A stretch of 64,000 bases of DNA from Loxodes magnus. Its lineage: Eukaryota; Ciliophora; Karyorelictea; Loxodida; Loxodidae. Positions 29,476 to 62,882 of the stretch are shown here, in pieces. Each line of letters begins with the position of its first letter. Within the stretch, counting starts at the first letter, position 1. The DNA lies in contig CAMPDV010000234.1 in assembly GCA_946699065.1 (NCBI GenBank), positions 1 through 64,000 of the forward strand. Direction: 5' to 3'. The position numbers and the translations under genes are program-made. The notes under the pieces were generated by a model that was given only the letters and a program-made list of their open reading frames with translations, had not been told where the DNA came from and did no database searches.

Positions 29476-32070
29476 ATGGATATGTAACAGTGTCCTAACT
29501 GTAGAAATGCTTTTGATTAAGGTTAGTTTTAAGCCAAGCAACTTCCTTGCAACTGTGTTTCATGTTTCAACTGTCTAAGTGCCATATATCAGCTTACGTA
29601 ATTGATAGTTTGCACGAATCATCAACAGATGTTTAACATCAGGCCTTAGAATCTACAAAACTATATGGTATAATAACCAATATAGCTTTAGTTACCTCAA
29701 CAACCTCATGCATTGGATTAAGTATGGTTAAATCAATAACTCGATTGGTTATAGGACTAATAGAATTAGAAATAAGAGCAGCTATAGTTTATAAGAGATG
29801 TTATCAATGGTGTTAGTTAGAAATGGAATAATATCTGCTAGTAGGTAATTAAATGAATATTCAAAATCTTGATAGAATAATATACTTAAAGAGTGAATAA
29901 GATTAAGAATTTACTGAATCGATTATCGGAACTCAATATTCAATAATAATAGTAATAGCGCTAGCATATCCACCAGCAGGCAAATCAGTATTAGCTATAA
30001 GAATAATAGTAGTAATTTACGGATATCTTAAGAGAAATAAATTTGATAAAGTAAGAATAAAATTTAAATTTGAATGATTAAGGTTTGCGATACAATATTC
30101 AGTATTATCTCTTAAATGCCTTCAATTTTCTGAGAGATCATTCAAAGGGTTAGATATTGACTCAGTAAAAAACTAAGTAGTTAATAGAATCTTATTTCAG
30201 TTAATAAGATGTAATAAGTGGTCTATGCCAAGGTCAATAATAATAAAAGTAGTTTCAGCAAAAACAATTATAGGATCTTCAATAATAAGGTATATAACAA
30301 AACCAATAATTATAATGCTTATATTAAGACTAAGCCTCCCTAAGACAATAAAGCTAAGACAAATAATAAAGTAAAGAATAACTAATGTAAAAAGACTAAT
30401 ATCAATTTAAAATATGCCAAGAAGTTTCAAATACTGCTTTAAGTAAGGAATAGCAGTTACTTCAATATATCCTTGAACTTTAGTTAGAGTAATAGAACTT
30501 TTAAGTTCAATAACTTTAAGAATAGCCAAACTTGATAAAATAAGCCTTAGTGGATTTCAATACTCTAACGTTCGAATAGTTAATTCAAATTTTAGACCAA
30601 CTAATACAACAATAAAGTATCAATATTTAATTTTTGAAGTAACATCCTTTAAATCGCTCAAGCTTAACCCTTTAGACCTCAGTCTTATTATAGTTATCTA
30701 GGGTATCTAACTTATAACTGGCTGATAAATTAAATTAGGTGTTAGAGTTATCTAGGAAATCATAGGAAGTATCGTAGTTATCATCGAATGTGATAACGAT
30801 ACTTAACTACCTGAATGTTAAGTTTGCATCATAATAAAATTTCTCCAACATGAGATTAGTGCAAGCAGATATATCGGACATGACATTTACTGAATGTGAT
30901 TTCTCCAATTCAAGTTTCCATCAATGTAATTTAAGGAATACTAAGTTAATCGGTTGTGTATTGAGTAATGCTAATCTATCCGATATAACAACTGAGTATC
31001 CTCATGAACTTGATTGTCATTCCAACTGTATCAACTCAATAGCTGTCTCTCCTGACAATCAATATATCATCACTGGTTCATATGATAAAACAATTAAGAT
31101 CTGAGATTATTAAACATCTGCCTTAATCAATACTTTAGAGGGACATACTTCTGATATTACCTCGGTAGTAATCTCCTATGACTCTAGATATATAGTATCA
31201 GGTTCATTCTGACCTGACTCAACCATAAAGATCTGGAATTTCTCTGATGGTACTCTCCTGAGAACATTAGAAGGACATACTTCTGCTATTAACTCGGTAG
31301 TAATCTCCTTGGACTCTAGATATATCATATCAGCATCTGATGACTCAACCATAAAGATCTGAAATTTCTCTAATGGTACTCTCCTGAGAACTTTAGAGGG
31401 ACATACTGGTCCTATTTGATCGGTAGTAATCTCCAATGACTCTAGATATATCATATCAGCATCTGATGACAAAACTATCAAGATATGAAAGTTATAAAGT
31501 TCATTTTGGGATTTTTTATCTAGTTCCTGTGTTAAAACTTTAGAGGGACATACTGATACTATTTCTTCGGTAATAATCTCCTATGACTCTAGATATATCA
31601 TATCAGCATCTGATGACAGAACCATAAAGATCTGAAATTTCCCTGATGGTACTCTCCTGAGAACTTTAGAGGGACATGCTTCTACTGTTACTTCGGTAGT
31701 AATCTCCTCTGACTCTAGATATATCATATCAGCATCTGTTGACAAAACCATAAAGATATGATCTTTTTCAGCTGGTTAGTGTGTATTAACTTTGAGTGGT
31801 CGCAAATATGCAATATGGTCCTTGGCATTATCAAAGGATTCGAGATGGATTTATTCTGGGGATTTAGATGGCTACTTGAGAAGATGGAATGTATAGAGGT
31901 TGTTAAGTGTTGATGAATCTGTGGGATAGGTAGGTGTCAATTTAGATAATTTAATAATAAAGTAGTTGGATTGGAATAGTGTATATGCTCCCTATGGAAT
32001 GAGGATGAGTGATTGTGAAGTAAGCAACATATAGATGAGTGAGTAGGACTTGTGGAGAATTATGAGATGA
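29476..32070 (+). CDS. RING/Gln-rich coil/pentapeptide/WD40 protein, intact
   Basis: ATG 29476 to TGA 32068-32070 gives 864 residues in one frame. An N-terminal RING-like finger has ligands C6, C9, C25, C27, C30, C33, C46 and H49 (Cys at the usual His position, His at the last). A Gln-rich, probably coiled-coil region follows (residues about 60-440; most Gln codons are TAA or TAG), then pentapeptide-like repeats (about 459-505). Seven WD40 blades (about 513-808) come next, of about 42 residues each, with TIKIW motifs where Trp is TGA or TGG, and a C-terminal tail. RING plus coil plus propeller is a TRIM/TRAF7-like ubiquitin-ligase plan; substrate recognition by the propeller is inferred. An intact paralogue lies at 60291 and a dead inverted one at 42059. 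Confidence 0.92.
31050..31905 (+). repeat. Tandem WD40 blade repeats (126-bp unit)
   Basis: Blades 2-6 are nearly identical at DNA level, with unit phrases GTAATCTCC, GACTCTAGATATAT, ATATCAGCATCT and CATAAAGATCTGA, separated by about 126 bp. Blade 4 has a longer outer loop. Differences cluster in a few codons after GGACAT and around the SAS-x-D turn. This pattern points to recent blade shuffling or gene conversion. Confidence 0.85.
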
Positions 32071-32099
32071 GATGTTTTTATTAAATTCATATATACTTA

Positions 32100-32300
32100 T
32101 TAAGTTAATATATTTATTAAGATTAATGAATTTAAGTATTTGAATAATCAATATTCTACAATACTACTAATCTATAATACTGTTATGTTACTATATTACT
32201 ATGTTATTATACAGTCATACTATTATATTGTTATACTGTTATGCAGTTATAATACTAATCTATAATTTTGTTATACTACTAAACTCATATATAAAAATAA
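32100..32300 (+). repeat. Short tandem repeat downstream of RING-WD40 gene
   Basis: Imperfect repeats of ATACTGTTAT/ATACTAATCT type lie just 3' of the gene. Related repeats occupy the same position after the other two family members (62985-63190, and 41830-42010 in inverse orientation). Confidence 0.6.
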
Positions 32301-33020
32301 CAATGATATTATACAGTTAAACAGCAATGATAATAAATTTAAGGTATATAAAACTGAGTTACGACTCTAAGCAATAATGTAGCAATGTAGTTGAATAAAT
32401 ATTTTATAATAATAAATTATAATGATATAAGTTTTTGTTTAAATTGTTGAGGCATAAGAGTATGTATATAATATATAATTAAGTAAAAGAGGGTGTAACT
32501 ACTTATAAAACTATAAAGGATTGAATGTGTTATTTTCTTTTAAAATCTAAAAGAGTAATTACGTTATTGTTTAAGTATATTAAAAGGATAATTATTTTAA
32601 GAATAGTGAAATGTTTATAATTGTTTATTACGAGAAATAGTGTTTTGTGAGTAGAGAGAGTACTGAATAATTATAAGAGTATAAAAATTAAAATAAATAA
32701 AAGCATTTGAATTTTTAATATTTTTTATTAAAAGAGGAAGAAAGCATATGGAAAATTATAAAATTAATAATTTTTTAAATTATAAGATTTTTCTGTTATA
32801 AAAGTTTTATGGTATAAAAGTTTTTTCTGTTGTAAAAATTTCTGTGGCAATATTTAATTTATAAATTTTTTAGGAGTTTACGGATGAATTACTTAGAAGG
32901 CTTAGTTAATTTAATTTTTAATTTAATTTTTAATTTAATTTTTAATTTAATTTTGTATTAAAATTTGTAATTAATTAGTGTGATAAGATTGATATTTGAT
33001 GTAAATTTTTGCGAAAATAA
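32301..33020. other. AT-rich region, no gene recognised
   Basis: Very AT-rich DNA with TTTAATTTAATTT runs (32910-32955). Conserved, with indels, after the second RING-WD40 gene at 63200-63934. Confidence 0.3.
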
Positions 33021-33085
33021 AAAATTTGTTTTTTTGCTCAGCGTTTTGCACTACAAGACATTTTTTTGGAAGGACTAAATTTTTG
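33021..33085 (+). repeat. TTTGCTCAGCG element, copy 1
   Basis: A roughly 60-bp element: T-tract, TTGCTCAGCGTTTTGCACT, AAGACATTTTT, then GGACTAAATTTT. It is GC-rich in its core against an extremely AT-rich background. Similar copies lie at 33500, 33757 and 63935, all on the same strand. Confidence 0.7.
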
Positions 33086-35640: not shown

Positions 35641-35649
35641 AAAATTTTA

Positions 35650-36722: not shown

Positions 36723-36795
36723 CGCCGACTAAGGGACTTGAACCCTTGACCATCAGCTTAAAAGGGTGGCGCTCTACCGACTGAGCTAAAGCTTA
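36723..36795 (-). tRNA. tRNA-Lys(UUU)-like, probably degenerate
   Basis: The D arm (GCTC/GAGC), the T arm (AAGGG TTCAAGT CCCTT) and a CTTTTAA anticodon loop are clear, giving anticodon UUU by arm counting. The 5' acceptor strand does not pair with the 3' strand AGTCGGC, and the anticodon stem pairs at only three of five positions. It is likely a pseudogene or recombined tRNA. A UUA reading (a Gln tRNA for UAA) would need an even worse stem, so I do not favour it. Confidence 0.55.
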
Positions 36796-36868
36796 TTTAT
36801 TATTATATGACTTATTTAAAAATAACTAATATCTTTATAGTTTATTTATCACTTTACTTTCATAAAAA

Positions 36869-36941
36869 TGGAGAACACGGGTATCGATCCCGTTGCCTCT
36901 CGTATGCGAAAGGAGCGCTCTAGCATTTGAGCTAGATCCCC
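36869..36941 (-). tRNA. tRNA-Ala(CGC)
   Basis: A 73-nt cloverleaf on the minus strand. Acceptor GGGGATC pairs with GTTCTCC (one mismatch, one G-U), D arm GCTC/GAGC, anticodon stem CTCCT/ACGAG (one mismatch), loop TTCGCAT with anticodon CGC, T arm ACGGG/CCCGT, discriminator A. Two stem mismatches leave some doubt about function. Confidence 0.75.
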
Positions 36942-37640: not shown

Positions 37641-37649
37641 ACATATGAA

Positions 37650-42010: not shown

Positions 42011-42058
42011 GATTATTTAAATTTTTTATATTATTAATTTTATTAATTTATAATGAAC

Positions 42059-44247
42059 TCAACTCATAATTATCTTCTTATTCAACTCACTAAAGATTAT
42101 CAGTTAGGCAATTTCTCAATCTCAATCCATAATCACCATACAAACCATTTCAATCCAGCTACTTAATTATAAAAATTATTAATTATTAATTACCTATTAA
42201 CCAGATAGATTAGAATATATTAAACTCTAGATATTTCATCTTCTCAATTCACCAATACCATCTTCAGAATAGATTCATCTTGAATCCTATGATATTGCTA
42301 CTGATCATATTGAAAATCTATGACCACTAAGAGTTAGTACACACTAATCAGTTGAGAAAGACCAGATCTTTATAGTTTTGTCTCGAGATGCTGATACAAT
42401 ATAGTTAGAGTTTAATGAGATAACTACAGATCTAACTGAAGATGAGTGACCTGCTAAAGTTTTAACACATGGAGTAGACAGGGAATCCCCAAAAAGAACT
42501 TTAAAGCTTTCATATCTTAATCGTTGAATCACCAGATGCTGATACAATATAGTTAGAGTCTGGGCAGATAACTACCAAGGTAACAATAGAAATGTGGCCT
42601 TGTAGAGTATTGATAAGGGTAGATGTTTAATAATTTCAAATCTTAATTGTTTTATCCATGAACCAGTGATGATGAATTGAATGTCAGGAGAAAATGTGAT
42701 TGAGTTAATGATTAAGTATGACCATATCTACTCAGTTGTGATATTAGAAAAATTAGCTTTGCTCAATATACAGTTGATGAACTTCGTATTTCTTAAATTA
42801 CATTGATGGAAACTTGAGTTGGTGAAGTCACAATTAGTGAATGTCATGTCCAATAAATCTGCTTGAACTAATCTCATGTTAGCAAAATTTTATTAAGTAA
42901 ACTACATATTAATGTAGTTAAGTATCGTTATCACATTTGATGATACCTACGATACTTCTTATGATGTTCTAGATAACTCTAACACTTAATTTAATTTATA
43001 GGCTATTTATGTGTCAGATAATTAAGATAATTATAATATTAGTAATGTCTACTCTGTTAAGCTTTTGTAATTAAAAGGAGATTACTGCAAAACTTAAATA
43101 TCGATATTAGATTGTTATTGTAGTTGGCTTAAGATTTGACTTAACTAATTGTACGTAAGGTTATTAAAGTTTAAGAAAGTTTGCTTTTTCAAGCTAGGTT
43201 GCTCTTAAAGTTATTCAGTTTACAAGATCTATTACTTAATTTAAAGTTCTATAATATATTGAAGTAGCTTTTAATAATTACTTTAAACAATACTAGAAAC
43301 TTCTTTATTTAATTTAACTGAGATATCTCTTTTTAAATTTGTTACTATTGACTTTATTACTTGTCTAATTTTTAGTGTCTTAAAAAACATTAACCTTAAA
43401 AGAAGAATTAATTCTATTAGTTTTCTTATATTTCTTATTATTGAAGATCCAATAATTAATTTTATTGGGATAACTTTTATTATTGACCTTAACATAAACC
43501 TTTTATAACATTTTATTGGCTGAAATAAGATTCTATTAACTACTTAGTTTTTTATTAGGTCAATAGCTAACCCTATGAATGATCTCTTAGAAAATTGAAG
43601 GTATTTAAGAGATATTACTGAATATTGTATCGTAAACCTTAATCACTCAAATTCATATTCGATTCACTTTTTAACTCATTGATTTCTCTTAGTATATCCG
43701 TAAATTACTGCTATTATTCTTACAGATTTTGCTAGTGTTGATTTGACTACTGCTGTATATGCTAGCGCTATTACTATTATTAAATGCTGAGTTCCGATAG
43801 ACGATTCAATAAATTCTTAATTCTATTAACTCTTTAGGAATATGTTTCTACCAAGATCTTAAATATTCATTTAAATGCTTACTATCAGATATTATTCCAC
43901 TATTTACTAGTCCCATTGATAACATTTCTTATAAACTATAGCTGCTCTTATTTCTAATTCTATTAGTCCTATAACCAATCGATTTACTGATTTAGCCATA
44001 CTAAATCCAATGCTTGATGATACTGAGGCAACTAAGGCTATATTGGTTATTATACCATATAATTTTGTAAATCCTAAGGACTAATAATAAAGCTTTGGTG
44101 GTGATTCCTACATGTGACCATTCTTGTAAACTGATATATGGCACTTAGACAGTTGAAACATAAAAAATAGTTGCAAGAAAGTTATTTAGCTTAAAACTAA
44201 CCTTAATCGAAAGCTTTTCTACAATTTGGACACTGTTACATATCCAT
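42059..44247 (-). pseudogene. Inverted RING-WD40 family member, degenerate
   Basis: ATG at 44247, same N-terminus and layout as the intact copies, but RING ligand C27 is Tyr. One base is lost in the first blade (GGTTCATGGATAAAAC near 42650), and a further shift in the long-loop blade (near 42480) breaks the frame. Only about four blades remain. The end aligns with TGA 42061-42059. TGA-for-Trp and TAA/TAG-for-Gln are seen throughout, so it decayed after the code was established. Its upstream 19-bp element is kept. Confidence 0.88.
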
Positions 44248-47400: not shown

Positions 47401-49430
47401 GTTAGGAAGTAATTTAATTTGAAATTTCATTTCCTTTATGTTGTGATGAAGATTGTATCTTTCATTCTAAATGATAATATCTCACCAAGTTAAGTAAGTA
47501 TTAGCCTGCATTATTCTGCTCTTACTGTAAAAAATGATGTGAATATACGCATTAAAATCCCCTAATATTAAAATTTTTTATTCTTTGCTGTTAGTTGCTA
47601 TTGTATTATTATATATTTTCATAAAAGGGTATTAGTTAATCTGAGTCGGATGTTATTGGCGCGTATACGTTTATTAATGCCAGTCAATCATCAAGCGTTA
47701 AACCTATTAATCTTTCCCCCTAAAATAACTCTGTTTGATTGATATACGCTATATCCAATAACTTGGTTTTGTTGTAATTTTATCTTTTCTATAAAATGCT
47801 ACTCTTTTGCTGTGCTTTATACCCAATTTAATTATTGCTCTGAAGCCGTATACGAAATGCATTTCAGCAGTTTGATCCATAAATATTTCTTAGATCGCCA
47901 TAATATCTATCTTCTTTTCACATATAATTTGATTAATTCTTCCTTGTTCAATTTTATTCCTCTGGCATTTGCTGCACCTATGTTTAATTCTGCTTATTTT
48001 ATTATATTAGTATTTCTTTGTACTTCTCCTTTTCTTAGTTCTCCAGCCTTGCGTTTTTAGCTTCATCTTCTTTAAAAACGTGAAAGCCAAATCGGCTTAA
48101 TGTTTATTATTTTTCCTATAATTATGTCTTAAATTTTATTACACGATACTATCTTTCTTGCCATTATATTTTATTTTCTATCTATTTTTAGACAGCGTTG
48201 AATTTATGCTCACTTACTTCCTGTTATTATTTTCTAGTTGTTTCAGTTTAGCTTTTCCTTGCTTCGTGTTTTACTTTCTGTTTTTATGTGACATTGATAA
48301 TTTTGTCTCAGTTTTTATTTTTTTAATTTTGTAGTTGAATATCTATTAAATTCTATCTGCTTTAAAATAACTTTAGTATGGCTCAAACTTGCTGGCTTAG
48401 CTAGAAATTCAAAGTGATATTTTATTTGGAGGTTAATCCTCTTCGTTATTCTTCACTTTCTTTTACTTCACTATCTGTTTCTCTTAATAATAAGGTATTT
48501 TATTTCTGATTTGCGAATGCATCAACCTGAATTGTACTTTCTTAGCATTTTTAATTACTTCTTTTAATAATTTTTTTTAGACATTAATTTGGGCTATGAC
48601 CTTTATGGCTACATTTCGTATATTTTCCAATTGATGGATGACTCAAGTAAGAGCTTATATCTCCTTCGCTAACTTATCTGGCTCACTTTCTGCATCTTTG
48701 ATCTTCTTTAATTCTAAATAATTTTTCATTTTCCCATTGGCTTACGCTATACATTTACAGTTCCAATTTCTGTACATACTATTTTCACGTACTGCTCTAG
48801 TTGTGTCTCCACCTGGTTCAAACTTGAATACATGTTAAATATTCAATGAATCTGATATTTCTTGATGTTGTAGATTTTTTCTATATTTCTTTGCTCTGTT
48901 AGTATTACAAAATTTCTGCACTTATATATTTTATTATTCCCGAATTGTATGATTATTTCCCTATTTTTGGATCATATAATACTTATTCCTGTCTGAAGGA
49001 TTTTCACACTTTCAATATTTTTACCATGAACGATTTCATCTTCTTACATTTCTGCTAACCTGAGACTTTGGTTGCAGTATCTCTCACTGAAATAGATAAC
49101 TCTACCCTTTTAGCAGTTTTGAGCGGCATATTCTAGTTACCTTTTATGGCATTTACTCGTTATTTTCTTCTTCCATTATAAAGATTTTCACAGAACTGTT
49201 GTTTGAGTTGACGTTCTAAATTACCTACTTTTTTTGATAGATTGCTTATTTTTAAGATTTCAGTCCTATTTCATTTAATTCCTCCTAGAAGTTTAAAGTT
49301 TTACGACAGAATCTTTTTTATTAAAAATAGTATCAAAGATCTGATTAAACTATAAAGCTCTTTCATATCCTTTTTAAATTTATCAAGCAATCCTGATCCA
49401 GGATTGGCAAGATGCGAAAAGTGGGATTAC
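44456..49430 (-). mobile_element. LINE1: non-LTR retrotransposon (endonuclease + RT), frame breaks
   Basis: On the minus strand, an upstream ORF1-like region (49430-48150) precedes an apurinic-type endonuclease: NARGIKLNKEE near 48000, IDIMAIQE near 47900 (catalytic Glu), NVYAP near 47690 and LGDFNAYI near 47560. The reverse transcriptase follows: NYRPILLLN near 46540, FIDIKKAFNS near 46345 (motif A), GIKLGSTCSPRLFN near 46180 (motif B) and VYADDIV near 46035 (motif C). A basic C-terminal region extends to 44456. The catalytic Asp residues are present, but frames change between EN, motif B and motif C, so this copy is probably inactive unless the indels are errors. Codons follow the host code (Gln from TAA/TAG). 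Confidence 0.82.
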
Positions 49431-49929
49431 TACTTGATATAGAGTAATATTGTAATTTGATTTATATATATAATATAATAGTTTTGTAAATAAAGTATAT
49501 TAAAGTTTTATTGTCTTAATTTTTAAGGTAATTAGATAAAAATAAAAGTTAAAGCATTATAAGTTAAAATATATTAAATTTAGAATAATTAAATAAATAA
49601 CAATATCTTATCTAAAATTATTATACATAAGATATTTAATAAAAATAAAGGTAACATTAGTAAACTAATTTATAAAAAATACTATTTTTACACATATATT
49701 TATGTCTGAAAAAATGTAAGAAGATTAAATTAAAAAATAAATGCAATATTTAAATAGTAAAATTTTCCTTTTATATCATATTAAAAAATATATTATATAA
49801 ATAAAGCTATGATATACTAAAATTATAGAATATTAAAATGCTATTATATTTAATTTAATTAAATTAGAAAATAATATAATTAATTAATTCAAATTTCATA
49901 TATTTTTACTATATTTCATATACCTAATA
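49431..49929. other. AT-rich DNA between the two LINEs
   Basis: No coding recognised; may be LINE2 3'UTR or host DNA. Confidence 0.3.
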
Positions 49930-52480
49930 AAAAATCCTTTGCAACTTCCTTCTAAATAAGTTTTATTCAATTTTCTTCTTTGCTTGCTCACTAGAAAAAT
50001 TATTATTCCAATAATTCTTACACTTGATTGTCATTTTGATCTAAAATTTAAATTCTTCTGCAAAGAAACTTTAATGAAAGTATTTAATTCTTAAATCAAT
50101 TTATTAAAGTTATCTTCTAGTAGGGAAGTTAATATTAATGTAATTTTGATTGTAAGTTATAGGTTTAATTGAATTGTAATTCCTGAAATCATTAAATTCT
50201 TCTATTAAATCTTGCAGAGCTTCACACTAAGAAATATGTTAATAGCTATCTTATTCTCCTCAAATGCAAATTTCAGAGTGTTTTATTTAATAGAGCCTTT
50301 ATTCAAATCATACTAAAAATTGTAACTAAAGGTACTTAATTTTTTTAATTGATACTATTTCTCAAATCATAGTTTTATTTAATTTTCATGTCTTTAGTTC
50401 TTACTTATAAAGCAGATATATTCATATTTTTCAGCATTTATAGTCAATTTAACTCAATCAAATACTTTACATGTAGCCTAAATTAATTAACTCATATTAT
50501 CTTTATTAGACAGTAATAAAAATTCATCTGCTTAAGTTTTGGAAAAAAATAAACGTAAACAAATTATAAATCCAAATTTTTTTTAATTTTCAAATATAAG
50601 ATTAAAATGCCGTAGAAGATAATGGCAAGAACTGGATCATGTGAAATTCCTTGTAAAGTTCCATTGCTATAATTCTAATTTCTAGATAATGTTCCGTCTA
50701 AAATAAATCTAATGTCTAGATGAGAATAAAACGATTCGAGATAATTTATTAGAGCAAGAGAAAACTTAATTCTATATAAATGTCCAAACAGCAAATCTCT
50801 GTTAATGTTATCGTACATTTTTTCTACATCTATAAGAGTAGCAAGAAGATATTTTCTCTTTCTTATCTTCTGTGTAAGTCAATATTTGATTATAAAGTTC
50901 GAACTCGATGTAATGTTTATCTCTTCTTTAAAAATCCTTGCTCTGAAGGGTTATGATCTTACTATCATAAATGTATCCATATATTCTTTAAGTTATTATT
51001 TTATCATATTTTTGAGGATAATATTTATAAGCACACTTGGTCTCCAGTTCTTTCAATTACTCTTTGATCTTTTTTTATAAATTGAAAGGATTTTGAATTT
51101 TTGAGTTAGTTTAGAATTGTTTGCTTTCTTAACATATAATTCATAAATCTTTAAAGTACTTCATAAAATTAATTACTAGAATATTCGATGAGTTCGGCTT
51201 TTATACCATCTGTTCCTGATGCTTTATTATTTGCCAATTTCCTGATGGCTTAATTAATTTCTTGTAAGTTTATTAACTAAATTTTTACTAATAAGAACTT
51301 TATGTAATTTTACAAAATCAAAATTTCAAAAATTTTATCGATCTTTATGTTACAGTTCTTCATTTCTTCTTCATTAATGTTAGTATGCTTATTAAAAATA
51401 TTATCTTCTCAGTTATTTACAAATTAAGAAGAACTTTCAGAATCCATATACATATTGTTTCTTATTCTTGGGCTTAGAATTTTTCTTGTTTATTAAAACA
51501 TTTTAGAAGATGATTAGTTTATTATTCCTCTATCTTCTTAGGCTTATTTAACCTTGAATTTTCATTTAAAGAATTAATAATCCTGTAAGATAGTATAGTT
51601 ATTTAGTAGGTCTAGTAGTAAATAGCAATTAGGATTAGAAGTTAGCAGAATATACTGATATTAAGTTTCTAAATTTTGTTCTTCTATTAGTTAAAAATAA
51701 TTTAAGCATCCTTAAAATTTAGCTTTATATTGCTCTGGTATAGCTAAACTCTAAAGGTTATAAGTGTTGAAATAGACTCTAGGAGCAAGAATTGGAGGAT
51801 TTGTATTGATATTTGAAGTAGTGAATTTTAGGAATATTGATCTGTATGAAGTGCAGTGGTTTGTAGAGAAATAGGGGAATTGGTTAATGTTAATGTGATA
51901 GTTAGGTATAATATAATAATTGAAATAAGTTTTATAATTTGCTCTACTTCTAAAAGTATCAAAACTTTAATCGTTTATTATTTGTAAATCATATTCTTCA
52001 ATCAATGTTTGTAATCTTTAAGCATTATCTTATAAGTTATGTCTATTATTACTTCCATAACCTTATAAAAGAGCATTCAAATCTCCCATTAATATAATAG
52101 GATAGTCTCCAACTACATTAAGAATAAGATCTAAGTTTGAATATGATTATTCTTTAACTAATATAGGTTTTTCATCTGTTGGCATATAACATGTTGTGAA
52201 ATAAATATTCTTTATTTTTACTAGTAGAAACCTATCATCTTATTAAATAAAATCCTCTATTTGTCTCCAATCAGCATCTTTAACAATCAACCAAACTCCA
52301 CCAGCTCTTTCAGTTTCATCACTGTTTTTATAAAAACTTCTATATCCTTTAATTTATATAGGAGCAAAGTCTTGATGCTGCCAAGTCTCATTGATAGAAA
52401 AAATATAAATATTGTAATAATTTGTAAATTGTTAAATGCTTAATTATTTAGTTCTAATTTCATATTGCAATGCGCTAATT
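49930..52480 (-). mobile_element. LINE2: non-LTR retrotransposon (endonuclease + RT)
   Basis: The endonuclease reads in one frame from about 52390: ETWQHQDF, RAGGVWLIVKD near 52300, CYMPTDEK near 52180 and LMGDLNALLQ near 52080. The RT fingers follow in the same frame (NNKASGTDGIKAE near 51215). A shifted frame gives NWKNWRPSVLIN near 51055, and a further shift gives LIDVEKMYDNINRD (motif A, near 50825) and GTLQGISHDPVL (motif B, near 50650). Motif C near 50530 appears as ADE rather than ADD. The second catalytic Asp is therefore in doubt and at least two indels exist. It is distinct from LINE1 in sequence but lies on the same strand directly upstream of it. Confidence 0.8.
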
Positions 52481-52699: not shown

Positions 52700-55430
52700 A
52701 GCTACCATTGTATCGATTTTCCCGAACCTTTATTTTACTACACTGTGAATGTAATCTAGGGAAATGTGTATATCTTTCGAAGCAGAAACTCAGAGTAGCA
52801 TATCCTTAGCAATATTTTAAAGCTTGATTTAGAAAAATGAATGCTATAATAAATTCAAGTATTTGAATCTTTGTCCTAGGAAAGATTCGGGTATATAGAA
52901 GCTCAAAATTTAAAATTTTTTGATAATATAGGGATTAAAGATAGCCAGCAATTTAAAATTATGTGTATAAGTACAACACAATTAGTAGAACGTAAGAACA
53001 GGTCTCACAAAATAAACTTCCAACTACAAAAAAATAACATGTGACATAATATTTGGAAAATATTTATACAAGTTTGATGGATAAACTATTTCAGGAGAAC
53101 CAGCTAAATATGTTTTTTTTGCTTTAGGATTCAATGTATGATTACTTTTCAGCAAAGATTAAGATTATCCAAGAAAACTCTTGCACTGTAATATTTACGA
53201 ATAAGGAAATACTCTATACATTTCATAAGTTATATATTTACATAATTACAATGATAAATAGATTTATTCTTACAATCTGAAAACTTTTTAATTTCTAGAA
53301 AAAGGAGAAACATCAAAGAATAGAGGGATAACTGCATCTAGCACAGTTGATAATTTTATGGCTATTTACTTAGGATTATTTTGCGGGTTTTACTCTTAAG
53401 ATGATTTCATATTAATATATTTGAAATAATGAAAGGATATTAAAGTTATCAAAGATAGTTAAGAAGATTTTAAGATTGGGATCATGTTATGACTTATTAT
53501 AAGTGAATGCTAATGTCTTTTGGCAGAGCTCTTAAAGGATGTTTTGATATAACTAAAAAATCTGCAAACTAATTATAAAATTTACGATATTCCTCGATAC
53601 TGAAGTCCTAACTTAGCTTTATTTGAGATGACCTTGTAGCTACGAACTTACGAAAATGAAAATGGAGAATGTTAATTTTATTCTCATGGTACTTATACAA
53701 AATAAAGTAAATAAATAGGATTTCCTTGTCTATCTGTTTTAAGATGGGATTAGGATATAACTCTCTTAATTCCTTAACTTCTGGAATTCATATATCAAAA
53801 TATGGTTTATACCAAACTCTTAGTATTAATTAATAAAATTAGTGAGCATTTCCACAATTGTCCTAACTTATATATCTTGTAATTAAAAGCCTTACCAATA
53901 CTCCTTCTTTCCAACCAACTATAAATTATCCTAGCCGTTAAAATTTTTCAGGCTTTTTTTGTTCTTACTCAGAAAGAACTTTGATAATTTACCATTCTAG
54001 CCCATTATAGAATTTTATTCTATTAATCATCAAAATCTTAAACTATTAAGTTAAAATATCTTAAATATCTAGAATTTAATCTTTAACTTAAAGAGATTAA
54101 GCATTTCTTACCTTTGAAGAATCTGAAGTAGTAATTAAGATTATTCTTCTATCTTCTGAGCATAAATATGTACTGCATACATAAAATTCTGATTTTTAAC
54201 GAGCTAGTTTGGTGAAGAAGCTGTTAGTAGATATGCTCAAAAAGAATTTAATAAGAGATAAGCCAACTAAGGAAATGAGGAGAAAATTATACGGTGAAGA
54301 TCACTGGATTTACGGATAAAACTCAATTCTAGTGTCCCATCAAAATTCTCTTACAAGTTACAGCAAGAAACTCTCATATTTTTAAGTTTATATCGTAACT
54401 AGCCGATACAATTAATTTCTAGTCACCAGATATCACTACAGATCAAACTCCTCCCTAGCGTCCCATCAAAGTTTAGCCTAAAAGATAAATATTTACCTTT
54501 ATTTTATTTTTATGCAAGTTAATAATTAATAAAGGTTAAGTGAAAACCTTGATTTCCTTTAATGCGGGAATTCTCAAATTTTCCATTTTAGTTGAATTTT
54601 TCATTACTTATGGATCTTATTTTGGGGTTTATTTTTAGATTTTTTCTAAGCTACTCAATAGTAAGATTTATATAGTTTCCAGACTTGCTTTCTCATTTGA
54701 ATTTTAAGTCCAAAATTTTTCAAATAAAATCTTATAATCCTTAGGAATTTTTTCTCTATCTCCAGCTTTTATATCCTCTCTTATAGATAAGTTATTAGTT
54801 TCTTAATAGGACACTTAATTAGTTGCAATTTCCCAAAAAATGACTCCCAAAGCAAAAATATCTGGTTATTTCTGTATTTAGGCTTTAAGCACATCAATTC
54901 AGGAGCTATCCAACGAATGTTGCCTATCTAAGTTTTTGATTCGAAAGATTAAGTTTCTATTCTCACTTTTGACAAATTAAAACCTGTTATTTTAGCTCTT
55001 AAATTCTTGTCCAGTAATATGTTATTACTCTTAAGATCTCTGTGAATAATGTTCTTCTCGATAATACACTCTAGACATATCCAAGCTTATGTTATATCGA
55101 ATTTTCTATGATATGTATTACTTATTTTTTATAAGCTAGTATAAATTGTAAGGCAGACATTCCAATACCAAACACAGCAGCTAAGGACAGTACTCATATA
55201 AAGATACTATTAGGATGATGCATCTTTTAGGTATTGATAGCTGCTATTCCATCTCTTTCTTAGCTGCCTAAGATAAACTTTAATTGTAAAACTCTTTATC
55301 GCTATTAATGTTCTTCCTTCAGTAAAGCTTTTCAAAAAACTCTAAAGCCACCCTTAGCAATCTCATCTATTTTCTAAATGTTAGAAACTTAGATAATATA
55401 ATCCTAGCTAATCTACGAAACAGTTGATTA
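52700..55430 (-). pseudogene. Protein kinase-WD40 fusion gene, copy 2
   Basis: Counterpart of 21430..24150 with the same [11 protein letters not shown] (for DFG) and WD40 blades, and the same frame breaks at the T6 tract and after APE. It also has private changes: a shortened stretch after the kinase domain (about 54740), one extra base near 54164 and a loss near 55080. The shared breaks predate the cassette duplication. Confidence 0.68.
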
Positions 55431-55880
55431 TAGATAAAAAGATGAAAACTCTTAAATAAGTAAATAAAATTGAATTTATCAAGTACTAAAAAAATGGCAC
55501 TATTGAAATTATAAAATAAAGGTTCTACTATTAATTAAAAAAACATATTATTAATTAATTAAAGAGAATAATATAAAAAGGATTATTTGGTATATTTTAT
55601 GAGAAATTAAAATAGTTTTGAAAAGTGTAAAATTTAATTAAGTTTAACAAAATAGAAATAATCTAATTCTCAATTAGTTTTTAACTAAAAAACTGTAATC
55701 ACATAATAAAATAGTAAAGAGATTATAAAATTTTAGAGAATTAACTTATTTATTGCTAAATAACTAGATATCTTATTTATTAGAATGTAAAAATCAGAAC
55801 TATGTAAAAATTAACTATTTTTGCTTAACTGCTAAATTCAACTAATCTCGAGCTTTATAAAAAAAGTAATATAAAAATTT

Positions 55881-56032
55881 AAGTTTTTGAGTTAAGGGAT
55901 CCAAGACGATCAGATACCGTACTAGTCTTAACCATAAATAATGCCGACTAGGAATCGGGGAGACCGTATAAATCTCCTCGGCACCTTCCGAGAAATCAAA
56001 ATCTTTGGCTCTGGGGAAATGTGGTCGCAAGA

Positions 56033-56066
<34 letters not shown>

Positions 56067-56666
56067 AAAGAGTGGAACCTGTGGCTTAATTTGATTCAAC
56101 ACGGGGAAACTTACCAGGTTCAGACATAGTAAGGATTGGCAGATTGAGAGCTCTTTCTTGATTCTATGGGTGATGGTGCATGGCCGTTCTTATTTGGTAA
56201 AGTGATCTGTCTGGTTAATTCTGATAACGAACGTGACCTCAACTTACTAAATAGACTCTTTCTATCGAGGAAATTGTCTTCTTAGAGGAACTTCCAGCTT
56301 TTAATTGGAGGAAGTGTGAGGCAATAACAGGTCTGTGATGCTCTTAAATTTCCTGGGCCGCACGCGCGCTATACTGACGCAGCCAATGAATTCCGAAAAA
56401 TAGCTACTCCGGTAACCTCGTAACTGCGTCGTAGTTGGGATTGACCCTTACAATTCTTTATCATCAACTTGGAATTCCTAGTAAGCGCAAGTCATCAGCT
56501 TGCACTGATTAAGTCCCTCCCCTTTGTACACACCGCTCGTCGCTCCTACCGATTTCGAGTATTCAGGCGAACCTCTCGGACTAATGGGAAGCTAATTGAA
56601 CCTTATCACAGAGGAAGGAGAAGTCGTAACAAGATATCCGTAGGTGAACCTGCGGATGGATCATTA
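55881..56666 (+). rRNA. 18S rRNA, 3' part (copy 2)
   Basis: Same abrupt start as copy 1. It retains the AAGAGTGGAACCTG segment that copy 1 lost but has its own substitutions (for example GCTCGTCGC for GCCCGTCGC near the 3' end). Ends at GGATCATTA. Confidence 0.92.
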
Positions 56667-56762
56667 ACATTAATATCAAACATTACAAAAACCAAATCTA
56701 TCTACAGCTTTATGCTGCTTTTCATTTTATCAAATATATAAACCTAAACAAAACAAAAACCC

Positions 56763-56890
56763 CAACAATAGATGCCTAAGCTCTGGCGTCGATGAAGGAC
56801 GCAGCGAAGCACGAAATTAAATGCGAATTGCAGGACTCTGTGAGTCATCAGGTTTCCCAATGTAACAGACACCTTGGGAAACTCAAGGTA
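56763..56890 (+). rRNA. 5.8S rRNA (copy 2)
   Basis: CGATGAAGGACGCAGCGAA core and GCGAATTGCAGGACTC; a few differences from copy 1. Confidence 0.85.
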
Positions 56891-56976
56891 TGTTCCTTTC
56901 AGTATCATATAAAATACAAATGTAAGTGAATAAGAATTCTTTTACCAAGTGAAAAAACTGAGTATATGTATTTGTG

Positions 56977-58729
56977 ATTTGAGGGGAGCAAAATAACCCG
57001 CTGAACTTAAGCATATCAATAAGCGGAGTAAAAGAAACTAACAAGGGTGGCCTTAGTAACAGATAATGAAGCGGTCAAAGCCCACTTGTAAATCTTCGGA
57101 ATTATCAAAGTTAGGGAGGAATGGTGTTGGATTGATTGACCAAATTGGTCAGGAATGACACGTCATAGAGGGTGATAACCCCGTGAGGTTCAATTAGATT
57201 AAAAACCAAACTATCTAAGAGTCGGACAGCTTGGGATTGCTGTCCAAAGTGCGAGGTAAACTCCTCGTAAGGTTAAATACGTCCAGAGTTCAATAGTGCA
57301 CAAGTACCGTGAGGGAAAAGTGAAAAGTACTTTGGAAAGAGAGTTAAAAGACCTGAAATAGTTGGAGAGGAAGCTGTGCGTCTACAATAAATCTGAGCAA
57401 AGCTTTGAAAAGAAGTATTGCAAGGATATAGTGGACAGATCGTCCCGTCTTGAAACACAGTCCAAGGAATCTAGCTATATCGCGAGTCTGTGCAAGTAAA
57501 TGTGTAGGCGAAATGAAAGTGCTTGGGCAGGACGAAGCCAGGGGAAATTCTGGTGGAGGTTCGTGTAGGTGCTGACGTGCAAATCGCTCTGTGGACCTGA
57601 GTATAGGGGCGAAGACTCATCGAAACATCTATTAGTTGGTTCCCTCTGAAGTTTCCCTCAGGATAGCTGGAACTTTTCGTGGTATCCGGTAAAGCCAATG
57701 AATAGAGGTTCGAGAGAAGTAACTTCTTCCTCCTATTATCAAACTTTAAATGGGTTCAGTAACGTTTCATAAATGAACGTGACATGACATAAATGTCCCT
57801 AGTGGGGCAATCCTGGTAAGCAGAACTGTCGATGAGGCCCAACCTGAAATGGAGTTAAGGCGACAGAACCCGTCTGCAAGAAAAGTCGTTAATCCATTTA
57901 GACAATAGAACGGTGGCCATGGAAGTCAGAACCCACTAAGCAGTGTGTAACAACTCACCTACAGAATGGACTAGCCCTGAAAATGGAAATTGCGAAAGGC
58001 GGGTGCCCATACTCTGCCCTCTGGTGTAGGAGGGCGTAGTATCTGCATGGAAGTAATTCTGTGAAGAGTTATGGAGCAGGTATTAGTGCAGATCTTGGTG
58101 GTAGTAGCAAGTATTCCAATGCCAACTTGGAAGACTGAAATGGAGAAGGTTTTCATAAGAACCACACTGGATCATGAATCACCCGATCCTAACCTTATGA
58201 GGGAAAGGAAATATGGTTAATATTCCATAGGTACTTACTACATAGTGGTGACACAGTATGTCGCAATATGTCAGGGTTGATCCTGGGAAGAGTTGTCTTT
58301 TCTGTCTAACATACATGTGCGCCTGGATCCATTACGGCGAGGGAGGCGTGATGTATGGAAGAGTAGTAAACTGTATGTGTTGTCTGGAGCACCAACTACG
58401 ATCCATGAAACTTGCGGCATGTAATATGTAGGAGTATTCGTTCCTATACCGCAGCAAGTCTCCAAGGTTAACAGTCTCTAGTCAATATGATAATGCAGGT
58501 AAGGGAAGTCGGCAAATTAGATTTGTAACTTCGGGAGAAAGATTGGCTCTGAGGGCCAGGCAGAAATCTCCACTGGAGGGATTGTGTAACTTAATTTTCA
58601 TGGAAGTGGGAGTTTTGTCGCCATGACCGAAAGTGGTCGGCCCTGCGGCGAATGGCCACCTCAGAACTGGAGTGGCAGGAGGAATCCGACTTTTTAATTA
58701 AAACAAAGCATTGTGAAGGTGATCTGTTA

Positions 58730-58760
<31 letters not shown>

Positions 58761-59202
58761 AGTCAAGGTGATGAGATTCAACGAAGCGCGTGCAAATGGT
58801 GGGAGTAACTATGACTCTCTTAAGGTAACCAAATGCCTTCGTCATCTAATTAGTGACGTGCATGAATGGATTAACGAGATTCCTACTGTCCCTATCTACT
58901 ACCTAGCGAAGCCACTGCCAAGGGAACGGACTTAGCATAATCAGCAGGGAAAGAAGATTCTGTTGAGTTTTACTCTAGTCTGGAACGTAGAGTGGCATAG
59001 GAAGCGTAGAATAAGTAGGAAGCCGCGATCTTGAAATACTACTACTAATATCACTTTACTTATCCTGTCATACAGTAACTTTCTAGCAATGTAGTTGGGT
59101 GGGAGAAACCGTTAGGTGGGGAGTTTGGCTGGGGCGGCACATCTGTTAAAAGATAACACAGGTGTCCTACGGCCAGTTCAGAACGGACAGAAACCGCTCA
59201 TA
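56977..59202 (+). rRNA. 28S rRNA, 3'-truncated (copy 2)
   Basis: Keeps the canonical GCTGAACTTAAGCATATC site but lacks about 75 bp between GAAATGAAAGT and GCTTGGGCAGG near 57520 that copy 1 has. It is truncated at the same AGAAACCGCTCA point, so it too lacks the sarcin-ricin region. Non-functional. Confidence 0.92.
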
Positions 59203-59220
59203 GTCGTACCTAGTTGTACC

Positions 59221-59982
59221 GAGTAGTACCTAGTCTTTCCTTTAGTTACTTATCTTTGTATCATCTATCTAGGGTTTTACATCGAGATTCTCATTACTAT
59301 CTCTCTGGGGTTTTACTTACTTTAACTTACTTTGATTATTAAAGTACATAATTTCAAATTTGAAATAAAAGATGCTAAAGACCCAACTTGAAAAGGTATT
59401 GACGCTTGACTATCTAATGATGATGAAGAAGAGATGGATTTTTAAGTGCTAATCAGTAGTAGAAGGATAGAGATAAAAGAATGAAAAGAAAAGTAAAAAG
59501 CATTAATAAGAAGATTTCTTGGACTCTAAAGGAAGTGAAAATTTCAAATTAATGAAAATTTGAAAAAAGAGAAAGCAAAAGAAAAAGTTTTGATAGATGA
59601 AGAATGGAACGAAGAAGATGATACTTAAGTATTAAGCACTTTAAGTGCTACATTTTGAGAAAAGAAGATTCAATATAAGTAGATAAAAAGTAGAAAAGAG
59701 ACTTGAAAGAAAAAATTGATGACTTTGATGAATGAGTTATATGTGACAAAGGCGTGAATCTAAAAATTGAGAAATGCATATATAAGAAATGAAGAATGAC
59801 TAAGAAGGTAAAAAGAAGATCTTGATGTCTATAGTGGTTTAGTGTATATTTTTTAAGACAAGTAGGGGTAAAAGGTGGGCTGTAGTATGGATATTTGAAG
59901 GGTAGTTTTATGAAACATAAATGACGGGGGAGGAAAGGAGTATATAGAAAAAGTGGATGGAAATAGAAAAGTATAAATCTGA
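59221..59982 (+). CDS. Spacer ORF: membrane segment plus charged helical domain (copy 2)
   Basis: One frame for about 254 codons from just after the truncated 28S to TGA 59980-59982, which lies inside the first bases of the 18S remnant. The N-terminus is strongly hydrophobic (59225-59340). Then come GIDAWLSNDDEEE near 59390, basic helices with TGA-encoded Trp, EEWNEEDD near 59600 (TGG here, TGA in copy 1) and a C-terminal globular-looking stretch. No initiating ATG is evident, so it may be a fragment of a larger gene truncated by the rDNA junction. No family recognised. Confidence 0.45.
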
Positions 59983-60045
59983 TTGATCCTCCTGACTGAT
60001 TCAATAAATAACGACACTGGGCTTCGTCTCGATGATTGGAGATTC
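59977..60045 (+). rRNA. 18S 5' remnant, internally deleted
   Basis: The first about 17 bases of 18S (CTGATTGATCCT, mutated) are joined directly to AATAACGACACTGGG and the following sequence. About 340 bases present at 28835-29185 are missing. Confidence 0.75.
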
Positions 60046-60240
60046 AGTGTCTCTTACCTAAAGTTATTTTCTCTTTTCGGATTTTTGATAGGAGAGCCCA
60101 TCTTTTATGATTTGGTCCCCTTTATTTTGGGTATAAACCATCTCTTTTTCCTCATTTTTTAAGAGAAATTAATCTTTATTAGTTTGTATTTTATTAATAA
60201 ATTAAATTTAATAATTAAATTTTAAATATTTTAATTTTTA

Positions 60241-60259
60241 TTTCATTGTAATTAGTTTC
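60241..60259 (+). promoter_or_regulatory. Conserved RING-WD40 upstream element (copy 2)
   Basis: Same 19-mer as at 29426-29444, same 32-base distance to the ATG. Confidence 0.4.
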
Positions 60260-60290
60260 TAAATACTAAAACTAATTTTATTTTTTATAA

Positions 60291-62882
60291 ATGGATATGT
60301 AACAGTGTCCTAACTGTAGAAATGCTTTCGATTAAGGTTAGTTTTAAGCCAAGCAACTTCCTTGCAACTGCGTTTAATGTTTCAACTGTCTAAATGCCAT
60401 ATATCAGCTTACGGGAATGGTCGTATGTAGATATCACCAGCAAACTTTTATTATAAGTCCTTAGGATTTGCAAAACTATATGGAGCAATAACCAATATAA
60501 CCTTATTTGCCTCAACAGCATCAAGCATTGGACTAAGTATGGTTAAATCAATAACTCGATTGGTTATAGGAGTAACAAGTTTAGAAATAAGAGCAGCTAT
60601 AGTTTATAAGAAATGTTATCAATTGGACTAGTAAATAGTGGAATAATATCTGCTAGTAGATAATTAAATGAATATTCAAGATCTTGATAGAATAATATTC
60701 TTAAAGAGTGAATAAGATTAAGAGTTTACTGAATCGTCTATCGGAACTCAGCATTTAATAATAATAGTAATAACGCTAGCATATCCACCAGCAGTAGGCA
60801 AATCAGTATTAGCTATAAGAATAATAGTAGTAATTTACGGATATACTAAGAGAAATCAATGAGATGAAGTAAGAATAGAATATAAATTTGAGTGATTAAG
60901 GTTTGCGATACAATATTCAGTATTATCTCTTAAATGCCTTCAATTTTCTGAGAGATCATTCATAGGGTTAGATATTAACTCAGTAAAAAGCTTGTTAGTT
61001 AATAGAATCTTATTTCAGCCAATAAAATGTAATAAGTGGTTTATGTTAAGGTCAATAATAATAATAGTAATTTCAACAAAAACAATTATAGGATCTTCAA
61101 TAATAAGAAATATAACAAAACTAATAGTTATAATACTTATATTAAGACTAAGCCTCCCTAAGACACTAGAGTTAAGACAAATAATAAGTTTAAGAATAAG
61201 TCAAATAAAAAGACTAATCTCAATTTAAAATATACCAAGAAGTTTCAAGTACTCTATAAAGAAAAGAATATCAGTTACTTCAACATATTATTGAACTTTA
61301 GTTAGAGTAATAGAACTTATAAGTTCAATAACTATAAGAGCAGCCAAACTTGATAAAATAAGCCTTAGTGAATTTCAATACTCTAACGTTCGAATAGTTA
61401 ATTTAAATCTTAAACCAATTACAACAACAACAAAGTATTGATATCTAATATTTGAAGTAACATCCTTTAAATCACTCAAGCTTAGCCTTTCAGACCTCAG
61501 TCTTATTATAGTTATATAGGGTATCTAATTAATAACTGGCTGATAAATTAAATTAGGTATTATAGTTATCTAGATCATTATAGGAAGTATCGTAGTTATC
61601 ATCGAATGTGATAACGATACTTAACTACCTGAATGTTAAGTTTGCATCATAATAAAATTTCTCCAACATGAGATTGTTGTAAGCAGATTTATCGGACATG
61701 ACATTTACTGAATGTGATTTCTCTAATTCAAGTTTCCATCAATGCAATTTAAGGAATACTAAGTTTATCGGTTGTACATTGAGTAATGCTGATCTTTCCG
61801 ATATAGCAACTGAGTATCCTCATGAACTTGATTGTCATTCCAACTGCATCAGATCAATAGCTATCTCTCCTGACAATCAATACATCATCACTGGTTCAGA
61901 TGATAAAAAAATTAAGATCTGAGATTATTAAACATCTGCCTTAATAAATACTTTATCCGGACATACTTCTTATGTTACATCGGTAGTAATCTCCTTGGAC
62001 TCTAGTCATATCATATCAGCATCTGTTGACAAAACCATAAAGATTTGAAATTTCTCTGATGGTACTCTCCTGAGAACTTTAGAGGGACATACTGATATTG
62101 TTACCTCGGTAGTAATCTCCTATGACTCTAGATATATCATATCAGCCTCTGTTGACAAAACCATAAAGATCTGAAATTTCCGTGATGGTACTCTCCTGAG
62201 AACTTTAGAGGGACATACTGATACTATTTCTTCGGTAGTAATCTCCTATGACTCTAGATATATCATATCAGCATCACATGACAAAACTATTAAGATATGA
62301 AAGTTATAAAGTTCATTTTGGGATTTTTTATCTAGTTCCTGTGTTAAAACTTTATCCGGACATACTTCTTATATTTACTCGGTAGTAATCTCCTATGACT
62401 CTAGTTATATAGTATCAGCATCAAATGACTCAACCATAAAGATCTGAAATTTCCCTGATGGTACTCTCCTGAGAACTTTAGTGGGACATACTTACTCTAT
62501 TCGATCGATAATAATCTCCTATGACTCTAGATATATCATATCAGCATCATGAGACAAAACCATAAAGATATGGTCTTTTTCAGCTGGTTAATGTGTATTA
62601 ACTTTGAGTGGTCACAAAAATTGAATATGGTCCTTGGCATTATCAAAGGATTCAAGATGGATCTATTCTGGGGATGGTATTGGTAACTTGAGAAGATGGA
62701 ATGTATAGAGGTTGTTAAGTGTTGATGAATCTGTGGGATAGGTAGGTGTCAATTTAATTAATTTAATAATAAAGTAGTTGGATTGGAATGAGGTATATGC
62801 TCCCTATGGAATGAGGATGAGTGATTGTGAAGTAAGCAACATATAGATGAGTGAGTAGGACTTGAATAGAATTATGAGATGA
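60291..62882 (+). CDS. RING/Gln-rich coil/pentapeptide/WD40 protein, intact copy 2
   Basis: ATG 60291 to TGA 62880-62882, 863 residues in one frame. All eight RING ligands (C6 to H49) are kept although neighbouring residues changed. The Gln-rich coil, pentapeptide-like repeats from residue 460 and seven WD40 blades are present. Codons differ from copy 1 by TGA/TGG, TAG/TAA and TAA/CAA swaps at 62571, 62589 and 61680. Blade residues after each G-H and in the SAS-x-D turn differ strongly from copy 1 while the scaffold is almost constant (turn residue V, V, H, N, W here; an insertion, D, D, D, V there). Likely a ubiquitin ligase with its own binding specificity; this is inference. Confidence 0.92.

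Follow-up and report, generated by a model that had tools for sequence, protein, structure and literature searches.

Hypervariable loop codons in the WD40 propellers of a RING-like gene family from the ciliate Loxodes magnus

Two intact genes in a 64,000-nucleotide stretch of Loxodes magnus DNA (assembly GCA_946699065.1, contig CAMPDV010000234.1, positions 1 to 64,000; hereafter the window) belong to a large family with one architecture, an excess of amino acid replacement at particular sites of its WD40 blades, nearly lost slot memory in its blade cores, a changing blade number, and a conserved upstream region. We find it moderately probable that the family consists of intracellular binder proteins with a fast-diversifying propeller, most likely for changing non-self partners. 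An earlier note on this DNA had proposed an undescribed recognition system; the evolutionary pattern behind that proposal holds, and a recognition function is what the pattern suggests.

Both reading frames are open with TAA and TAG read as glutamine and internal TGA as tryptophan, and both end in TGA. From N to C terminus the genes encode a RING-like zinc motif, a glutamine-rich region, pentapeptide repeats, and a seven-blade WD40 propeller. The features are as follows.

29416-29475, plus strand: the 60 nt preceding g1, the same sequence as the 60 nt preceding g2
29476-32070, plus strand: gene g1, 864 aa, frame-intact, with a terminal TGA and eight internal TGA read as tryptophan
29476-29640, plus strand: g1 RING-like zinc motif (C6 C9 C25 C27 C30 C33 C46 H49), zf-RING_2 below cut-off
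29716-30795, plus strand: g1 glutamine-rich region, aa 81-440, 27% Q and proline-poor
30838-30981, plus strand: g1 pentapeptide repeats, aa 455-502, PF00805 above cut-off
31012-31902, plus strand: g1 seven-blade WD40 propeller, hypervariable sites in blades 2-6 (31120-31776)
42057-44247, minus strand: third copy, g3, a pseudogene with several frameshifting indels
60291-62882, plus strand: gene g2, 863 aa, frame-intact, 85% amino acid identity with g1
60291-60455, plus strand: g2 RING-like zinc motif, zf-RING_2 below cut-off
61656-61802, plus strand: g2 pentapeptide repeats, aa 456-504, PF00805 above cut-off
61830-62714, plus strand: g2 WD40 propeller of seven blades, with blades 2-6 spanning 61938-62588

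The N-terminal zinc motif is a likely RING; zf-RING_2 matches aa 1-150 with E-values of 1.7 (g1) and 0.2 (g2), both under the Pfam cut-off. Every one of the 40 parsed copies keeps all eight Cys/His ligands (C6 and C9 were requirements for parsing), and the fourth ligand is Y in pseudogene g3. Composition and heptad bias suggest that aa 81-440 of g1 are perhaps a coiled-coil region. The earlier description of a RING/coil protein overlooked the pentapeptide segment. That the protein is not an NLR agrees with Pfam, which reported neither NACHT nor NB-ARC in aa 1-510 of g1 and g2. N-terminal Pfam matches to Mob1, 14-3-3, and COQ9 were weak and all below cut-off, and NCBIfam returned only sub-threshold pentapeptide and propeller matches. 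In an AlphaFold2 model of g2 aa 442-863, the propeller has a pLDDT of mostly 85-97.

The assembly searched, most likely the L. magnus macronucleus, spans 705.7 Mb. The start pattern of the family occurs at 245 sites genome-wide, while the reversed control pattern occurs at none. Loci were fetched as the best 40 of 94 matches ranked by N-terminal score, a choice that biases the sample toward intact copies. L132 and L151 had no recognisable start and were excluded, and the remaining 38 together with g1 and g2 gave 40 parsed genes, of which 35 keep the frame to the C-terminal motif. The five that do not (L124, L126, L137, L140, and L152) were set aside, as were the duplicates L123 and L134, equal to L122 and L133 in the compared parts; the already excluded L126 likewise equals L125. 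Diversity counts further omit slot-1 blades and the 17 of 202 cores carrying two extra residues, leaving 146 blades from 33 genes. Blade number varies, as some genes have four and others five core blades in addition to blades 1 and 7, and g3 lacks, relative to g2, two blades at a gap of 252 nt and one blade at a gap of 126 nt. Long arrays of 126-nt blades, with 4,022 scaffold sites, are also seen elsewhere in the assembly.

The ten core blades with a near-fixed frame that were noticed at the outset are blades 2-6 of the two propellers. In these the amino acid is constant at codons 5, 6, 8, 9, 15, 18, 19, 21, 22, 25, 27, 29, 31, and 33-37, varies most within the core at codons 11, 12, 14, 20, 30, and 32, and varies less at codons 7, 10, 13, 16, 17, 23, 24, 26, and 28. 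The residues after G-H had been described as free to vary; the first is not (T in nine of ten blades), while the next two are, as is the residue after I/V. Six codons (10, 11, 12, 14, 30, and 32) were chosen a priori from fungal work. Four of these, codons 12, 14, 30, and 32, correspond to codons 7, 9, 25, and 27 of the Podospora blade, which PMC1805685 describes as under strong diversifying selection in HET-D/E. Among the 146 blades these four are exactly the most variable of 32 codons (one of 35,960 possible sets), which bears out the suggested closeness to the HET-E/HET-D hypervariable positions.

Variation is uneven over the blade. In the ten window blades, piN/piS is 2.10 at the six codons compared with 0.38 elsewhere in codons 6-37, and none of 100,000 random position sets reached the observed piN. 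Across the 146 blades it is 3.04 at the six codons (gene bootstrap 2.69-3.47) and 0.26 (0.24-0.29) at the other blade codons; at the four strongest it is 2.33, from pairwise counts rather than a tree-based codon model. The excess is limited to particular sites, as dN/dS between g1 and g2 over the whole propeller is 0.76. Nearly every blade is different, with 138 distinct six-site combinations among 146. In five gene pairs with N-terminal divergence of 0.5-5%, two of which share one duplicated gene, 33-80% of hypervariable residues differ (mean 0.66). The L130/L136 pair, with 27% differing at 5.4% N-terminal divergence, counts against a fast-diversifying reading.

On the propeller model the excess lies at codons of the d-a and b-c loops, with one variable site off that top face. 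This is codon 20, the residue before D-S, which varies as had been claimed (entropy 1.57 in the ten window blades and 2.03 pooled over 146) but by strand order in the model sits in the a-b loop, on the opposite face. Such a variable a-b loop codon, as placed by the model, is new relative to known hypervariable propellers.

Blade cores and linkers behave differently. In a set of 17 genes sharing one architecture, the linkers differ by 0.059 per nucleotide between blades of the same slot and by 0.391 between different slots, whereas hypervariable codons differ by 0.438 and 0.462, respectively. A small memory of the slot persists in hypervariable codons and scaffold, with 0 of 500 permutations as low, and counts against the main reading. 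Between paralogues, then, linkers keep their slot and cores have almost lost it, as if cores had been exchanged. Applied to codons 6-37 of the ten window blades, a PHI test was not significant at three window sizes (p 0.22, 0.06, and 0.91), and with linkers included (codons 1-42) it was significant (0 of 5,000). Since linkers are slot-fixed, the latter result says little about cores, and the slot-memory tests are relied on for core exchange. Within a window gene, cores differ by a mean of 15.8 of 96 nt, and tandem-repeat matches run at 86-88%. Together with the HET-D/E codons and the replacement excess, these slot results strongly support the evolutionary reading.

It is also conceivable, though rather unlikely, that the gene rides passively in a repeat unit along with decayed rDNA, its blades turning over like a satellite and its loop sites unconstrained and without a recognition role. 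The genomic setting invites this. Thirteen plus-strand family starts are among those listed on the window contig, spaced 26-44 kb apart, and rRNA pieces adjoin 20 of 20 loci tested with Rfam (20 of 30 family loci). In the window they are as follows.

24336-27894, plus strand: decayed rDNA adjoining g1, with a short SSU match, 5.8S, and LSU as three pieces
28819-29267, plus strand: separate SSU 5' piece directly upstream of g1 (model 4-605)
55622-59657, plus strand: rDNA adjoining g2, with SSU (5' part unconvincing), 5.8S, and LSU over the full model

Because family copies lie next to decayed rDNA in repeat units, copy number may be partly passive amplification, and the long blade arrays and pseudogene g3 would fit as well. 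A tie to working rDNA was examined and set aside: the best 40 5.8S matches (40 scored of 16,862 candidates; 111-116 bits, often 6-7.5 kb apart) lie on no contig among those listed for the family, and the window copies score 92-94 bits. Unconstrained sites would, however, give a piN/piS near 1 rather than the observed 2.3-3.0, and the N-terminal 500 residues are at 0.17-0.39 by region. The zinc ligands are kept throughout, and all 60 upstream positions are at least 90% identical across 26 copies, those of 30 family loci having the exact start word.

An alternative that is unlikely on the present evidence is that the proteins are substrate adaptors of a housekeeping ligase, diversified to match many endogenous partners (e.g., in mating or development) and no foreign ones. 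COP1 and TRAF7, which are conserved regulators, carry RING, coiled coil, and WD40 in that order, and the purifying selection on the N terminus would suit an adaptor too. Endogenous partners would nevertheless hardly need nearly all blades to differ in combination with a replacement excess. Targeted hypermutation, diversity-generating-retroelement-like or other, that writes the loop codons while selection merely filters is highly improbable. In its favor, the four codons have a high diversity of 0.59 and 0.64 at phases 1 and 2, and the lower value of 0.28 at phase 3 is still about twice the 0.146 of the 26 least variable codons. Against it, synonymous diversity at the six a priori codons is 0.161, not above the 0.191 of the rest. 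At the four strongest codons it is somewhat raised (0.248 versus 0.176), which counts against the main reading. Repeat-induced hypermutation (RIP) has been proposed as feeding fungal repeats in PMC1805685.

If the family does consist of fast-diversifying binders, its N-terminal half, under purifying selection, would serve as effector and oligomerising part, plausibly a zinc-binding ubiquitin ligase, and the C-terminal propeller would be the variable sensor. Recombination may exchange the cores of blades among slots and among genes, entire blades would be gained or lost, and selection would favor amino acid change in every blade at its d-a and b-c loops. The outcome would be a single scaffold offering a repertoire of binding surfaces, each nearly unique. 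Candidate partners, presumably bound as proteins, are parasites, mates, or proteins derived from prey or viruses, in a putative immune or allorecognition role perhaps linked to ubiquitination. More tentatively, the family could be an anticipatory, combinatorial intracellular receptor repertoire in which germline-type WD40-RING genes, in the hundreds, exchange their loop-bearing cores and keep their linkers, with ubiquitination instead of an NLR switch and the long blade arrays as a second system or sequence reservoir. We know of no earlier such receptor repertoire in ciliates. That a RING-like protein of a ciliate shows the fungal pressure at the very codons known from fungi suggests the propeller loop surface as a recurrent solution to fast recognition, one that would be independent of the NLR switch. 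Whether a unicellular predator has recognition or immunity of this kind becomes testable.

A literature search, which left out most subscription journals and bioRxiv, found nothing pairing Loxodes with WD40; matches combining WD40, pentapeptide repeat, and ciliate concerned other subjects by titles and abstracts, and ciliates went unmentioned among the matches listed. The family resembles COP1, TRAF7, and the TRIM ligases in having a RING-like part, a helical part, and a recognition domain in this order. TRIM ligases have a B-box and, in many cases, SPRY in place of a repeat propeller; Pfam reported no B-box in aa 1-150 or 1-510 of g1 and g2 at E up to 10, with HMMER filters dropping most weak matches. 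Fungal NLRs are documented to have hypervariable WD40 sensors, and such sensors are suspected in bacterial immunity (PMC9218822).

Nearest in sequence and fold are the highly repetitive WRAP-type propellers of cyanobacteria and other prokaryotes, to which the Loxodes propeller conforms in its seven-blade WD40 fold and near-identical blades. It matches 2YMU with an E-value of 1.1e-167, and the designed propeller 7BIG with a TM of 0.94 over the target. In a prokaryotic control, from which 44 of 81 loci with fewer than four pattern-matching blades were excluded, 35 of the 37 retained loci have the four codons above the other free positions. One WD40 protein came from a search of viral contigs and served solely as a control row. 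As prokaryotic near-identical propellers commonly share the site pattern, it reports fast-changing binding rather than immunity as such and is by itself no proof of a receptor. Codon 20 is not specially variable in them (mean within-locus entropy 0.63, with which the pooled Loxodes value is not on an equal footing).

The Podospora HNWD proteins (HET-E, HET-D, and HET-R) and other fungal NLRs likewise have 42-aa (126-bp) blades with a near-identical frame. The HNWD family has the same four strongest variable codons and also shows repeat exchange, blade number change, and pseudogenes. Fungal HNWD proteins carry NACHT before WD40, whereas in the Loxodes family a RING-like, Q-rich, and pentapeptide N terminus was found in its place; genome-wide, 31 NACHT matches (27.9-37.8 bits against a cut-off of 26.7) lie on no contig among those listed for the family. 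The Loxodes family has 245 start sites compared with the ten members given for Podospora in PMC1805685, and it differs further in its slot-fixed linkers and additional variable a-b loop site. The site pattern itself is general, and what is new here is the host, the RING-like/pentapeptide architecture, the scale, the decayed rDNA beside the genes, and the a-b loop site predicted by the model.

Two frame-intact genes in the window, g1 and g2, encode a RING-like N-terminus followed by pentapeptide repeats and a WD40 propeller, with TAA and TAG read as glutamine, internal TGA as tryptophan and terminal TGA as stop. A third copy, g3, is a pseudogene.

29476-32070: g1, 864 aa
60291-62882: g2, 863 aa
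Minus strand of the window: g3, interrupted by small indels and lacking, relative to g2, stretches of 252 nt (two blades) and 126 nt (one blade)

The g1 and g2 proteins are 85% identical, and Pfam places pentapeptide repeats ahead of seven WD40 stretches in each. The N-terminus carries the motif C-x2-C-x15-C-x-C-x2-C-x2-C-x12-C-x2-H. All 40 parsed copies retain its eight ligands, of which the parsing itself required the first two; the match to zf-RING_2 is weak (E 1.7 for g1 and 0.2 for g2). Residues 81 to 440 contain 27-29% glutamine and two prolines, a composition compatible with a helix or coiled coil. Over the 44 codons of the C-terminal tails (31936-32067 in g1, 62748-62879 in g2), about 7.8 replacement changes and 0.2 silent ones separate the two genes, a count from few sites and this gene pair only.

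The genome searched comprised 705.7 Mb in 7,843 contigs, in line with the 706 Mbp given for the L. magnus macronuclear assembly (PMC11441545). It holds at least 94 full-length matches to g2 residues 1 to 450, a lower bound from which g1 itself is absent. A start pattern allowing up to two mismatches occurs at 245 sites, which may include pseudogenes, and its reversed control at none. On the window's own contig there are 13 plus-strand starts among the matches listed, spaced 26-44 kb apart, and immediately upstream of the start codon each of 60 positions is at least 90% identical across 26 copies.

Each blade is a repeat of 42 codons, of which codons 6 to 37 form the core and the other ten the linker. 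The numbering of blade positions follows published work: positions 10, 11, 12, 14, 30, 32 and 39 are those used by PMC12222747. The codons described as strongly selected in PMC1805685 (7, 9, 25, and 27, with conserved codons 8 and 26 in between) correspond to 12, 14, 30, and 32 here, since matching the spacing gives an offset of five. Forty loci were sampled by N-terminus rank, and hence independently of their propellers; two fetched loci without a recognisable start were dropped, and 40 genes including g1 and g2 were parsed, of which 35 stay in frame as far as the C-terminal motif (33 after duplicate removal). The earlier note had proposed that variation is concentrated at certain blade positions, taken to be binding positions, rather than spread evenly. 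A concentration of this kind is seen in the 146 blades of the 33 genes: codons 12, 14, 30, and 32 are the four most variable of the 32 core positions (one of 35,960 possible sets), followed by codons 11 and 20. As pairwise counts, which are open to bias from saturation, piN/piS is 2.33 at these four codons vs 0.38 at the other 28, and 3.04 (2.69-3.47) at codons 10, 11, 12, 14, 30, and 32 vs 0.26 (0.24-0.29) at the rest; four N-terminal regions give 0.17-0.39. A tree-based selection test would be invalid if blades exchange. Position 39 falls outside the family comparison; among the ten window blades, the only changes there come with the different linker of blade 4. At the protein level 140 of 146 cores are unique, with 138 distinct six-site combinations. 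Between g1 and g2, dN/dS is 0.76 over the whole propeller and 0.18-0.34 in four N-terminal stretches, so the replacement excess belongs to the sites and not to the domain as a whole.

A structure model of g2 residues 442 to 863, built from a two-sequence alignment, is confident in the propeller alone (pLDDT of at least 90 for 184 of 422 residues, and below 50 in the pentapeptide part and tail). Seven-blade propellers, both designed and natural, are its best fold matches, with 7BIG reaching a TM of 0.94 over the target and 0.64 over the query. Going by strand order, used in place of coordinates, the d-a loop contains codons 11 and 12 and the b-c loop codons 30 and 32; codon 14 sits close to where strand a begins, and codon 20 belongs to the a-b loop. 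The a-b loop of WD40 propellers lies on the face opposite to the d-a and b-c loops. The earlier note expected the excess at top-face positions; one variable site, codon 20, is not on that face.

Exchange between blades, for which the earlier note advised a test, is suggested by the near loss of slot identity in the cores. Between g1 and g2, linkers occupying the same slot differ by a mean of 1.0 nt and those of different slots by 11.6, while cores differ at 15.2 of 96 nt within a slot and 14.8 between slots (slot permutations reach a value as low in 69 of 120 cases). Across 17 genes of one architecture, the same-slot and different-slot differences are 0.059 vs 0.391 for linkers, 0.063 vs 0.081 for scaffold and 0.438 vs 0.462 for hypervariable codons (for both of the latter the slot signal is small but significant, 0/500). 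The pattern is what conversion tracts would leave if they were anchored in the near-identical core and ended at unlike linkers. A PHI test within the ten window cores was not significant. In the five pairs at 0.5-5% N-terminal divergence, 0.33-0.80 of hypervariable residues differ (mean 0.66), and at 5-10% the average is 0.74-0.77, so change there is fast and then saturates; one pair of fetched loci, L130/L136, differs by 0.27 at 5.4%. Three gene pairs are identical throughout and may each be one locus on two contigs.

A second WD40 type forms long arrays at 126-nt spacing on contigs C1503 and C119 (loci L082-L089, L160, and L161), with further matches on C9, C620, C272, and C1832. Its scaffold 23-mer occurs at 4,022 sites (control 0). 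Six loci supplied 132 blades, whose frame hardly varies and whose variation falls mainly at codons 6, 7, 12, 14, 30, and 32; some stretches of the arrays keep frame and others step by 125 or 127 nt.

The genes lie in repeat units, the first holding g1 and the second g2. Pieces of rRNA stand upstream of the gene on the same strand in 20 of 20 loci tested, with the LSU 3' end in 11 and a separate SSU 5' piece in 9. SSU matches span only 1,008-1,045 nt of a 1,831-position model in three units (window 24336-29267 and 55622-59657, and locus L162), and the alignment of one of them becomes convincing only at about base 55890. The best 40 matches to 5.8S in the genome are on other contigs, and the units therefore seem to carry decayed rDNA, apparently also rearranged. 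About 6.7 kb (window 45706-52367) is private to the second unit; the first unit runs without a break across the corresponding point, at 21066. Other features near the genes are as follows.

22828-23175, minus strand: WD40-like fragment, first unit
54311-54529, minus strand: WD40-like fragment, second unit
36723-36792, minus strand: tRNA gene (Rfam; unreported by ARAGORN)
36869-36941, minus strand: tRNA gene (Rfam; unreported by ARAGORN)

The simplest account of these sequences is a repertoire of binders, diversified by selection and blade exchange and joined to a constrained RING-like N-terminus. The propeller would bind foreign ligands and the RING-like part would provide a ligase output; the evolutionary statement holds on its own, apart from function.

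Among 81 prokaryotic or viral-contig control loci, the 37 with at least four canonical blades were used, and the six a-priori positions are more variable than the rest in 37 of 37, partly since the search pattern fixed some of the others. When the comparison is limited to positions left open by the search pattern, 35 of 37 loci show more variation at the four strong codons than at the others, and this site pattern is therefore a general feature of WD40 propellers built from near-identical blades. This agrees with PMC9218822, where the WRAP branch is linked to bacterial innate immunity. Unlike in the Loxodes family, codon 20 is not specially variable in the control propellers. One IMG/VR contig (L001) encodes a WD40 protein of near-identical blades with the same variable positions. 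For HET-E, one of the Podospora NLRs, PMC1805685 describes codons 11, 12, 14, 30, and 32 at the same places as in the g2 model. The Loxodes repertoire is not a member of the HET-D/E family because Pfam found no NACHT in residues 1 to 510 of g1 and g2, but its sensor would work like that of HET-D/E.
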